Assembly (NCBI GenBank): GCA_009392295.1
Contig: VFGW01000017.1
Location: 145,872-209,871, forward strand
From: SAR202 cluster bacterium
GTDB taxonomy: Bacteria > Chloroflexota > Dehalococcoidia > Lucifugimonadales > GCA-2719675
DNA: 64,000 nucleotides
Direction of reading: 5' to 3'
Shown here: in pieces, positions 59,097 through 64,000 of the stretch
Layout of the letters: the number at the start of each line of letters is the position of its first letter
Numbering within the stretch: the first letter of the stretch is position 1
Notes under the pieces: generated by a model
The model's database searches: none
The model's input: only the letters and a program-made list of their open reading frames with translations
What the model was told of the DNA's origin: nothing
Made by a program: the position numbers and the translations under genes

Positions 59097-60434
59097 TTAT
59101 GGTTTGATTACGGTTCCATCAGCTCTTCGTGTTGGACCCCAGGAGCCACCGTATGCTCTTTCTTTATATGGGAATTTTGAGGCCATTTTTTCATCAATAT
59201 CTATACCTAGTCCAGGTTTTTGATTCGGCCACATATATCCATTTTTAACTTCTGGAAAACCAGGGAACATTTCCAATGTATTTTGACCTGGAATTGCATA
59301 TTCTTGGATTCCAAAATTGTGATTATTGATATCTAACATTAAATTTGCTGCATGCCCTACAGGTGATGTGTCTCCAGGTCCGTGCCATGCAGTTCTTATA
59401 TTAAAAAGTTCAGACATTGCAGATATTTTTTTTGCTGGAGTAATGCCACCTATTTGAGACATATGGAATCTAATGAAATCGATAAGTTGATTTTTAATTA
59501 ACGGTATATATTCATGCTGGTTATTCCATAATTCACCCATAGCAAGTGGAGTTGAACATTGATTTCGAACTATTTTGAAATACTCTGAATCTTCAGGGCT
59601 AAAAAGATCTTCTAAGAAAAAGAGTTCGTATTTTTCAACTTCTTTTGCAAACCATATACCCATAATTGGAGGTATTCTTTCATGAACATCATGAAGCATT
59701 TCGAAATTCCATCCGATGGTATTTCTTAAATGTTCAAAAAGATTTAATGCTGACCTAACGTAAGGTCTAGGTTCAAAAATACCAGATGGAGATGCTTCAA
59801 TCAAACTAGTATTTTTTGATTTTTGGTACTTTAAATTTTCTTTTTGTTTTGTTACCCAAGAGGTTATCCATTTTGGTCCTTTAAAATTTTTTTTATTTAA
59901 ATTCTTAATTTGTTTTGATCCATAATTGGAGGTTAAGCCTGGCGTAGCTACTTGAACTCTAATATAGTGGAATCCTTTTTCTATAAATGACCTAGCATTA
60001 TCTTCAACTTCTTTAGGGTCTGAACCGTTTGCGTGAACATATACAGCTGCAGCTTCTCTGGATCTTCCACCTAATAAATCATAAACAGGCATTTGTGCAA
60101 TTTTTCCTTTGATGTCCCATAACGCTTGATCAATTCCAGAAATTGCATTGTTTAATACTGGTCCATTCCTCCAGTATGCGGAAACATTACTGGTTTGCCA
60201 GATATCTTCTATGTCATTAACATTTTTACCTAATAAAAAAGGTTTTAAATAATCATTAATCGCTGAATATACTGCAGTAGGTCTTTGTGTAAATGTTGCA
60301 TCTCCTACACCATATAATTCCGGCTCAGATGTTTCAATTTTTACTGTAACTAGTCTGGTGTTGTTTGGTTCAGTTAAAAAAGTTTTAATATTTCTAATAG
60401 TTATTTCATTTTTCATTGTATATTTATTTGTCAT
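59097..60434 (-). CDS. Enolase-superfamily RspA/mannonate dehydratase-like protein
   Basis: YWRNGPVLNNAISGIDQALWDIKGKIAQMPVYDLLGGRSREAAAVYVHANG, EMLHDVHERIPP, FLEDLFSPED, RTAWHGPGDTSPVGHAANL. Confidence 0.9.
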   Translation of the reverse strand: MTNKYTMKNEITIRNIKTFLTEPNNTRLVTVKIETSEPELYGVGDATFTQRPTAVYSAINDYLKPFLLGKNVNDIEDIWQTSNVSAYWRNGPVLNNAISGIDQALWDIKGKIAQMPVYDLLGGRSREAAAVYVHANGSDPKEVEDNARSFIEKGFHYIRVQVATPGLTSNYGSKQIKNLNKKNFKGPKWITSWVTKQKENLKYQKSKNTSLIEASPSGIFEPRPYVRSALNLFEHLRNTIGWNFEMLHDVHERIPPIMGIWFAKEVEKYELFFLEDLFSPEDSEYFKIVRNQCSTPLAMGELWNNQHEYIPLIKNQLIDFIRFHMSQIGGITPAKKISAMSELFNIRTAWHGPGDTSPVGHAANLMLDINNHNFGIQEYAIPGQNTLEMFPGFPEVKNGYMWPNQKPGLGIDIDEKMASKFPYKERAYGGSWGPTRRADGTVIKP

Positions 60435-60885
60435 ATGTAACAGATTTAGCCCATGTCCATCCTTCTTCTCCAGTAGATATTACACGTACCTTGATTAGCC
60501 CAACGGGGAATCTTCTAAATGGCGACCCATCACCTTTGTCATATTGAGTATTTAAGCATCTGGCTTCATCAATGATTTCAACTTTTTCTCCAGCTTTTAA
60601 TTGAGATCCAATAGATGAAATTACACAGAATTCTTCCTTGGTAGCAGCCCAACTTCCCTTTGATACAGAGAATTGCTTCAATTCAAAAGAAGACCATAAT
60701 TCAAAAGGTAAATTTGTTTTAATATCAAGTGACTTACTAGCAGCACCACCACCAAATTTTGCTCCAGAATCTGAGTTCATAGTCACTGTTGGTTCGATAA
60801 GGGTACCTGTTTGGGTTGAAATGCTTGAACTACATCCAATGATTATTGATATAGAAAAAACAAATAATATTAAAAATATTTTGAT
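60424..60885 (-). CDS. SH3-like lipoprotein, tandem paralogue 2; proposed ATC start
   Basis: Frame extends upstream of track start through a lipoprotein signal (KIFLILFVFSISIIIGCSSS); ATC at 60885-60883 aligns with the ATG of paralogue 1; GEEGWTWAKSV SH3-like end. Confidence 0.6.
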   Translation of the reverse strand: MKIFLILFVFSISIIIGCSSSISTQTGTLIEPTVTMNSDSGAKFGGGAASKSLDIKTNLPFELWSSFELKQFSVSKGSWAATKEEFCVISSIGSQLKAGEKVEIIDEARCLNTQYDKGDGSPFRRFPVGLIKVRVISTGEEGWTWAKSVTYDK

Positions 60886-60912
60886 TTTATTACCTAACCT
60901 TTTTGCTGTTTA

Positions 60913-61401
60913 TTATGGAGAGAAATTAACTGCCTTTGTCCAAGTCCAGCCCTCTTCTCCAGTATCAATTACTTTAATTTTAACTAATCCTACAATATAG
61001 TGTTTGGGTGAGCCATCGATGGTATTAATTCTTGAGTATAAGCAAGTACTTTCGTCAATTATTTCAATGTTAGAATTTACATTCAATTGTTTTCCTGAAA
61101 TCTCCTCTACTACACAAAATTCTGCTTTTGCAGAAATTCCGGTACCAATAGTTCTTTGGCTGATCATTTCGTTTTTATAAGAATCCCATAGGAGTAATGG
61201 TAATTGGATTTTTATATCTTGTTTTTTGTTAGCAGATGTACCGCCAAACTTTCGATCTCCTATAGAAATTGTGACTTCAGGTTGTTTGATTATTCCTGTT
61301 TGGATACCGGATTGTTTTTCTGAAGATGAGCATGCTAAAATCAGGAAAATAAATGAAATTAGCGTAGATATTATTAAACTTTGTGCATATTTATTTTTCA
61401 T
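60913..61401 (-). CDS. SH3-like lipoprotein, tandem paralogue 1
   Basis: MKNKYAQSLIISTLISFIFLILACSSS lipobox; KFGGTSANKKQDIKIQLPLLLWDSY, GEEGWTWTKAVNF. Confidence 0.8.
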   Translation of the reverse strand: MKNKYAQSLIISTLISFIFLILACSSSEKQSGIQTGIIKQPEVTISIGDRKFGGTSANKKQDIKIQLPLLLWDSYKNEMISQRTIGTGISAKAEFCVVEEISGKQLNVNSNIEIIDESTCLYSRINTIDGSPKHYIVGLVKIKVIDTGEEGWTWTKAVNFSP

Positions 61402-61532: not shown

Positions 61533-61943
61533 ATGAAATTAATTTTTAATATCAGTTATTTGCTTTGCTTTATAGTTTTATTTACTAGCTGTTCAAAAAA
61601 AGTTGATTCTGCAGATGTGGTTCAATCGATTCCTAAAATTAATACTGAAAGCAAAGAAGAAGCTCTTGCTAAACATTTAAATGAAATTGGATCTGTAATG
61701 TATGGAGCATTTTGGTGTCCATATTGCAGTCAACAGAAGAAGATATTTGGTAAAAATTTTATATATATAAAATATGTTGAGTGTGATCCCAGAGGTGAAA
61801 ACTCGAATTTCAAATTATGTGAGTATAAGGAAATTAGAAAATATCCTACGTGGGAAATTTATGGAGAGAGATTTGAAGGAGTTTTGAGTTTAAGTGAATT
61901 GGAAGAAATTTCTAATTTCAAGGGGTCAAATTTTTCATATTAA
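61533..61943 (+). CDS. Lipoprotein thioredoxin domain resembling VKOR-fused thioredoxin
   Basis: Lipobox FTSCS, MYGAFWCPYCSQQKKIFG...YVECDPRGENSNFKLCEYKEIRKYPTWEI; start taken at 61533. Confidence 0.8.
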   Translation: MKLIFNISYLLCFIVLFTSCSKKVDSADVVQSIPKINTESKEEALAKHLNEIGSVMYGAFWCPYCSQQKKIFGKNFIYIKYVECDPRGENSNFKLCEYKEIRKYPTWEIYGERFEGVLSLSELEEISNFKGSNFSY

Positions 61944-64000
61944 TTGTCATGTTTAATAAAAATTCTCTCTAAAATTTTTTCTATAGTTGTAAAATGTTTT
62001 TCCCAATAATTTGGCAAAGTTTCTATCCAAATCAAGAAGATTTTTTTGTTAGAAAAATTGATTGTTAGTATTCCTCTTTTTTCTTCAGAATTTAAAGTGT
62101 AATTCGATTTATAGTTGATTTGATAACTTGGATTGGTTCTGTAAGAAAAAGCCCAGTTTCTTTCCGTAATATTGGAATTTGTTAAGTTTATTTGATTTGC
62201 ATAATTTTCTAAGGATAAATTTTTAGCATCAACAATATCTTTTACTTCAACACTGATTGTTAATTCACCGTTTGGTTCATATATAAAAAGATCCATGTTG
62301 TTTATTTCTCCAAGCATGTAGTTTGGGGGAACAGATATTGAATATTGGTTATATTTATCGAGAAAATTGTAAATTGTGAAAGAAGATTGCATATATTTCA
62401 AAATTTGTTTATATGTAGAATTTTGACTGTATAATTCTGTAGGTAAAAATATGGATATTTGAATTAAATTTTTCCCAGATAGGTACCATAAAACTTCCGA
62501 GTCAATTTTCATGTCATTTTGTTCGTATTTCATATTAAACAAAATGTAAGGATTTAAACTTTTCTGGAAATTACTAGTAGTATTTTTTAATTCTACAATT
62601 TCACATTTAGTAGTATTTTCTGGACAATTAGGTTGCCAGTCCTTATGGTAGGCTTCGATAGCAGGATATTTTTCAACATCCACATTGAAAGTTGCAATAC
62701 TCATTCCAATATTTGATTCTTCAAATCTGGATTGGAGAGTGTCAGGATGGAACCAAACGAATTCGTTGTCTGACAAGTCAGTTTTCCAACTTTTTGGGAA
62801 ATGAACATTGTACCAAAATTCTGGATTTTTGAATAAGGAATAATTTGTAGTTGCATTAGATTTTTTTGATATGATTTCGATATCTTGGTTAAATTTAAGG
62901 TTTTTTAGAATCAAATCAATTTCATCTGAAATTGATTTCCATTCCGAGTCTTCACTTTCAGTATGGATTTTATATCCATAATTGTTATGGATAAAGAAAT
63001 AGTCAGTTAGAATGAAAGATTCAGATGAATTTTGATAATTTTTTCTCTTAGTTATTGCCCATGTTTCTAGTCCGTTACCTACATAATAATTATATGAAGA
63101 TAGAAATTCGTAGGAGATATTTTGATTATTAGGATTTAATTCTGTATTTATACTTGCGTATTGATATTTTGTTAAATTATTTGGTACAGGTTCGGATTTA
63201 ATCGATATTTCACCTGAAGTTTTGGAATTTACTATTAATGTGAACTCATCAGAAATTTTGTATAGAGTCCAATTTTCAGGAATTGAAATAGAGTATGGAA
63301 ATGACTGGTTGATATATTTGGTTTGAATTTTCCCAGATATAGCATCTTTTGTTGAAGTTAATTCTTCTCCTTTCATAAATTTTTGAATCTTAGAGATTGC
63401 CGAATCTATTGATATAGCATAATTAATTCCAATTGCATCTAGGGATCTAGAAGTATTTATTCCAATTACTTCACCTTGTAAATTTATCAGTGGGCCGCCA
63501 CTATTTCCTGGGTTAATTGCAGCGTCAGTTTGTATAGCATCTAAGTTACCAATTGAATTATTTCTAATTCCTGAAATAAGTCCTCTTGTAATACTTGGAA
63601 GACCTCTCAGATTAAGGGCGTACCCTATTGCTAATACTGGTTCTCCAATTTTTATTTTTTTTGATGAACCAAATTTTACAGGAGATAAGTTGGGTTTATT
63701 AATTTTTAAAAGTGCAATATCATCGTTTGAATCTTTGTTGATAACATATGCCAAATAGCTAGTAGAGTCATTCAGTGTGACTGAAACTACTGATTTTCCG
63801 GATACTACATGGGCGTTGGTTACAATGAAACCATTTGAAGAAATTATGAACCCAGTACCTGCTCCGGATCTAGTGTTGATTCTAACAATTGATTTATTTA
63901 AACTATTAAATATTTCAGGTATTGTAGGGTTTTTTAGTATATTGTCAGTAGGAGTAGGAGTAGGAGTAGGAGTAGGAGTAGGAGTAGGAGTAGGAGTAGG
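61940..64000 (-). CDS. HtrA/DegP-like trypsin protease with repeated C-terminal domains (5' end outside window)
   Basis: Frame is open from the window edge: NTRSGAGTGFIISSNGFIVTNAHVV (His), DSNDDIALLKI (Asp), NPGNSGGPL (Ser); supplied track starts at an internal Met (63754). Confidence 0.92.
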   Translation of the reverse strand, partial: PTPTPTPTPTPTPTPTPTDNILKNPTIPEIFNSLNKSIVRINTRSGAGTGFIISSNGFIVTNAHVVSGKSVVSVTLNDSTSYLAYVINKDSNDDIALLKINKPNLSPVKFGSSKKIKIGEPVLAIGYALNLRGLPSITRGLISGIRNNSIGNLDAIQTDAAINPGNSGGPLINLQGEVIGINTSRSLDAIGINYAISIDSAISKIQKFMKGEELTSTKDAISGKIQTKYINQSFPYSISIPENWTLYKISDEFTLIVNSKTSGEISIKSEPVPNNLTKYQYASINTELNPNNQNISYEFLSSYNYYVGNGLETWAITKRKNYQNSSESFILTDYFFIHNNYGYKIHTESEDSEWKSISDEIDLILKNLKFNQDIEIISKKSNATTNYSLFKNPEFWYNVHFPKSWKTDLSDNEFVWFHPDTLQSRFEESNIGMSIATFNVDVEKYPAIEAYHKDWQPNCPENTTKCEIVELKNTTSNFQKSLNPYILFNMKYEQNDMKIDSEVLWYLSGKNLIQISIFLPTELYSQNSTYKQILKYMQSSFTIYNFLDKYNQYSISVPPNYMLGEINNMDLFIYEPNGELTISVEVKDIVDAKNLSLENYANQINLTNSNITERNWAFSYRTNPSYQINYKSNYTLNSEEKRGILTINFSNKKIFLIWIETLPNYWEKHFTTIEKILERIFIKHDN
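63948..64000 (+). repeat. GTAGGA hexanucleotide tandem repeat encoding a (Pro-Thr)n linker on the minus strand
   Basis: Nearly 9 perfect units, continuing past the window edge. Confidence 0.95.

Follow-up and report, generated by a model that had tools for sequence, protein, structure and literature searches.

What reads the second of two adjacent lipoprotein genes when no usual start codon precedes its signal peptide? The question is raised by a pair of paralogues, copy 1 and copy 2, in the window, the 64,000-nucleotide stretch of DNA analysed here, which lies within contig C17 of a 1.45-Mb draft genome (G000) of a marine-type Chloroflexota bacterium, from a metagenome assembly. Copy 1 ends with TCT CCA TAA TAA and the same frame continues as ACA GCA AAA AGG TTA GGT AAT AAA ATC AAA ATA TTT, remaining open from the ATC at 60885-60883 through to the stop codon of copy 2 (60426-60424). 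The first in-frame ATG, GTG or TTG of copy 2 is the GTG at 60786, well 3' of the lipobox cysteine codon. The original prediction, of tandem lipoproteins in one frame across TAATAA with no canonical start ahead of the second lipobox, was therefore correct in sequence, frame and all coordinates. Few bacterial start codons are rarer than AUC. The features of the locus and the evidence for them are as follows.

60913 to 61401, minus strand: copy 1 lipoprotein, 162 amino acids, with an ATG start at 61401 and TAA at 60915-60913; an orthologue is present in the sister genome G001.
60910 to 60915, minus strand: tandem stops TAA TAA closing copy 1 (second TAA at 60912-60910), read from the sequence.
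60892 to 60895, minus strand: AGGT, Shine-Dalgarno-like, 6 nt 5' of the ATC, from duplex energy and the anti-Shine-Dalgarno CCTCC in 16S rRNA.
60883 to 60885, minus strand: ATC, putative start of copy 2, aligned with an ATG in the sister species.
60424 to 60885, minus strand: copy 2 lipoprotein, 153 codons, from the open frame and family profile matches.
60885 to 60835, minus strand: signal peptide of copy 2, with the lipobox cysteine codon at 60834-60832.
Residues 87 and 110 of copy 2, minus strand: conserved cysteine pair.
59097 to 60434, minus strand: enolase-superfamily, sugar-acid dehydratase-like gene; the nearest NCBIfam models, ManD and the D-galactonate dehydratase family, are below cut-off.

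As in bacterial lipoproteins generally, the lipobox of copy 2 (IIIGC) ends a hydrophobic signal. In its longest reading the enolase-superfamily gene shares 11 nt with the end of copy 2, and both the gene order and the overlap are kept in a sister species (G001), the sole other genome of the same genus that was compared. There, copy 1, copy 2 and the enolase-superfamily gene follow one another in identical order at the syntenic locus, and copy 2 starts AAGGAG-TATAA-ATG AAA ATA TTA compared with AGGT-AATAAA-ATC AAA ATA TTT in the window. The ATC aligns with the sister ATG, and codons 2 and 3 (AAA ATA) are identical. Since the sister orthologue begins ATG AAA ATA, the ATC of copy 2 amounts to a one-base start-codon difference, and the proposal that it occupies the ancestral start position is borne out by the ATG at the aligned codon. 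The AUH start (where AUH denotes AUU, AUC or AUA) is thus not conserved in copy 2. The gap between the two copies is 27 nt here and 35 nt in the sister, where the frames differ, which means that the common frame is not conserved either; on this sequence comparison it is true of the window yet incidental. In the search for a second strain of the species, a scan of genome contigs returned the sister species only and a pattern scan of viral contigs returned none. The sister also has a third, divergently oriented family member beside the pair (L005:2719-3189, plus strand) that is missing from the window, pointing to a recent gain or loss.

A survey of 210 orthologous pairs between C17 and contig C3 of G001 identified copy 2 as the only gene for which the window genome alone is without a usable start. 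A trypsin-like gene (61940-63754) that was also flagged as start-less was rejected as a contig-end effect. Another start-less reading frame, C17:70370-71425 (L086), is one that we take, from its sequence, to be prfB-like and consistent with the programmed frameshift of RF2.

Copy 2 has the character of an intact gene that has been under purifying selection. It is ∼81% identical to the sister orthologue, with no stop and no frameshift relative to it, and the distance from the Met1 position to the lipobox is that of the orthologue. Over the 136 codons of the mature part the dN/dS is 0.127, versus 0.200 for copy 1 (copy 1 gives 0.215 over all against its G001 orthologue). The signal region evolves quickly, with 11 nonsynonymous and 1 synonymous differences over 16 codons (numbers too small for interpretation), and it is hydrophobic still. 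The original prediction had raised the prospect that relatives might show decay of copy 2, but copy 2 of the relative is intact and that of the window is without decay beyond its start codon. Neither of the marks of a pseudogene, further disabling changes or relaxed selection, was found, a result that a very recent loss would also give. Because most of the divergence may predate the start change, the dN/dS values speak for a copy 2 that used to function and shows no visible decay, rather than for its current expression.

The signals for initiation at the ATC are ordinary ones. The 16S rRNA of the window genome carries a matching anti-Shine-Dalgarno, CCTCC, with which the copy 2 sequence pairs at −4.5 kcal/mol versus a median of −5.3 kcal/mol for 142 ATG genes of the contig, and 17% of random sites pair as well. 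Strength and spacing (6 nt) are therefore unexceptional, and the site is weaker than the AAGGAG of the sister. Copy 2 hence presents the features of a gene with an AUH start, namely an AUH codon at the Met1 position, no canonical start that would give the full product, and a Shine-Dalgarno sequence at suitable spacing.

The original prediction had listed four options without ranking them: non-AUG initiation, stop readthrough, start loss and a base error. Non-AUG initiation emerged as the best supported, by the Shine-Dalgarno sequence, the purifying selection and the AUH starts found elsewhere in the lineage, while readthrough found no support. We consider that copy 2 is probably a working gene whose output is lowered by weak initiation at AUC. 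Counting against this reading are the single genome of the species, the ATG of the sister, the extreme rarity of retained AUG-to-AUC switches and a dN/dS that mostly predates the change. Among 61,358 ancestral AUG starts, taken from annotated starts, one retained switch to AUU and none to AUC was reported (PMC5622118).

The alternative with the most to be said for it, although we regard it as unlikely, is that copy 2 was silenced too recently for decay to have set in, either generally or in the assembled strain alone. The start change would then be the whole of the defect seen, a paralogous family of 25 copies would make one of them dispensable, and neither dN/dS nor the frame would register so young a loss; the Shine-Dalgarno sequence is still there, however, and copy 2 is free of further decay. 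Decay is, moreover, rare on C17, since no interior nonsense or frameshift change occurs in ∼202 orthologues, whose apparent stops all fall at gene ends or in upstream sequence. The same orthologues bear on a base error in the draft metagenome assembly, the real codon being ATG, which is improbable. In its favour are the single draft genome, the sister ATG and the fact that the finding was chosen for its odd start, while C17 contains no N and none of the 25,712 single-base routes to a stop in 56,473 interior codons has been used. As start-destroying changes are 18 times fewer than these routes, ∼0.03 (at most ∼0.16) random start losses are expected, an estimate that assumes that errors and decay strike starts and interiors alike. 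Given that assumption of equal rates, and a finding selected for its start, the calculation only lowers the likelihood of a base error.

Two further alternatives remain. Initiation at the GTG at 60786, the first canonical in-frame start, would yield a short cytoplasmic protein with no lipid anchor, and we regard it as very improbable: the signal would be lost together with a lipobox cysteine that is invariant in the aligned family, the sister protein begins 33 residues earlier, and the region encoding the signal remains open and hydrophobic. Readthrough of TAATAA to give a fusion of copies 1 and 2 is scarcely credible even though both are in one frame here, as it would have to pass two consecutive TAA codons rather than a single leaky stop, the frame is not shared across the 35-nt gap of the sister, and an intact lipoprotein signal that is N-terminal in every relative would become internal to the fusion.

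For the favoured reading, initiation at AUC, we propose the following mechanism. The start codon of copy 2 would have changed from ATG to ATC, the direction being that suggested by the sister, and the AUC would be read at low efficiency by initiator fMet-tRNA, guided by the AGGU Shine-Dalgarno sequence 6 nt 5' of it. Coupled reinitiation, by ribosomes fresh from termination at the copy 1 stop ∼27 nt upstream, probably assists. The product would be the same lipoprotein at a reduced dose, and its output would be expected to be sensitive to the level of IF3.

Initiation of this kind has precedents. In Listeria the ATC start of rnhC and the ATT start of infC are experimentally confirmed, and changes of the rsbW start from ATG to ATA or ATT lowered synthesis but did not abolish it (PMC13068326). 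In S. aureus, ccpN (AUA) and cvfC1 (AUU) give ∼10% of the AUG output in poor medium, and infC starts with AUA (PMC13009471). Like these Listeria (rnhC and infC) and S. aureus genes, copy 2 is an intact gene with an AUH codon at its N terminus, a normally spaced Shine-Dalgarno sequence and no canonical alternative, so that reduced initiation is expected. It differs from them in that its AUH codon is not conserved (the sister has ATG), in having many paralogues and in being known from sequence alone, and its Shine-Dalgarno sequence is unlike the extended ones described for S. aureus AUH starts. The rsbW mutants resemble it in another respect, a one-base change that turns ATG into AUH in the downstream member of an adjacent gene pair; these, however, came from selection in the laboratory, with a known benefit and a demonstrated residual synthesis. 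They also indicate that conservation of the AUH codon, although typical of infC, does not define the class.

AUH starts are apparent at other genes of the lineage. In the 210-pair survey recF had no ATG, GTG or TTG in either species; AAGGAG is followed after 6 nt by ATA at the codon for RecF Met1 (in the window genome L090:2420-2422, plus strand; G000:C17:142420), and the ATA is found in both species. Across the order, AUA, AUC or AUU stands at Met1 in 22 of 50 readable genomes, the call requiring that no canonical start occur in the stretch lying 25 to 7 codons 5' of the RN[YF] motif. The 22 loci are L090, G001:C3, L115, L118, L119, L122, L123, L125, L126, L129, L132, L133, L135, L136, L140, L141, L144, L146, L149, L152, L153 and L159, and a GGAG or GAGG motif often lies just 5' of the AUH codon. 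The remaining readable genomes have ATG, GTG or TTG at Met1 (20), a canonical start nearby (5) or a mixed pattern (3). Outside the order there was no AUH recF among the 25 that were readable of the 30 best-scoring recF loci of a phylum search (Fisher p 2.4e-5 for 22/50 versus 0/25, a value that overstates certainty because the genomes are related by descent and the outside sample was non-random). Since ATG, GTG, TTG, ATA, ATC and ATT alternate at one recF codon, the pattern is what a start codon would be expected to give, and an internal isoleucine would not. For infC (L108 and L109, minus strand) the apparent start lies 7 nt after AGGAG and is ATT in the window genome and ATC in the sister, so ATC is already a likely start in the genus, and several further infC genes within the order also look as if they start with ATA or ATC. 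The recF pattern is more novel than the AUC start of copy 2, which joins already known AUH-start genes; no paper linking recF with an AUU start codon was found in the literature searched, which is not proof of novelty.

The lipoproteins themselves belong to a family numbering ∼25 in the window genome and ∼40 in the sister (both 1.4-Mb genomes) that is absent from 77 other genomes of the order, and hence confined to the genus among the 79 searched. From the two genomes 66 members were collected, one of them cut by a contig end; of the 65 complete ones, copy 2 alone has no ATG, GTG or TTG ahead of its lipobox. Members stand alone or as pairs in neighbourhoods of diverse metabolic genes. In an AT-rich genome, one other member (1489-1983 of L039, minus strand) has a run of ten G directly 5' of its TTG start, which may be a phase-variable ribosome binding site.

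The label SH3-like, given to these proteins in the original prediction, has moderate support. Their matches to Pfam and NCBIfam families all stay below cut-off (Pfam SH3_3 appears at an E-value of 0.07 in one of 56 members), and neither a PDB sequence search with the family nor a viral fold library gave anything useful. AlphaFold2 run on the family alignment (pLDDT 86.6) predicts a protein of beta structure with a likeness to SH3 barrels in its second half, and Foldseek matches it to the Src and Fyn SH3 domains with a probability of up to 0.97 and a best rmsd of 1.5-1.8 over 57 columns, although all E-values exceed 0.1. The likeness to bacterial SH3-like domains (SH3_3/SH3b) thus lies in a small beta barrel predicted for the C-terminal part; unlike those domains, the family has two invariant cysteines besides that of the lipobox (three in all, in 56 aligned members), no Pfam or NCBIfam match above cut-off, and a restriction to one genus. 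A binding role facing the cell surface or periplasm is only a guess.

The recF starts suggest that AUH initiation is under-annotated in this order. Callers that accept only ATG, GTG or TTG would place the start of copy 2 at GTG 60786, 33 codons late, and so lose the membrane anchor. We put forward tentatively, as an idea about which we remain somewhat doubtful, that the order may use AUH initiation as a recurrent dosage control, at recF in nearly half of its genomes and at infC in several, with new AUH genes such as copy 2 still arising, and that gene callers would in consequence systematically mis-start or miss them. If initiation at AUC is true of copy 2, the change from ATG to ATC, set beside a sister that has ATG, would be a natural single-base experiment in dosage.
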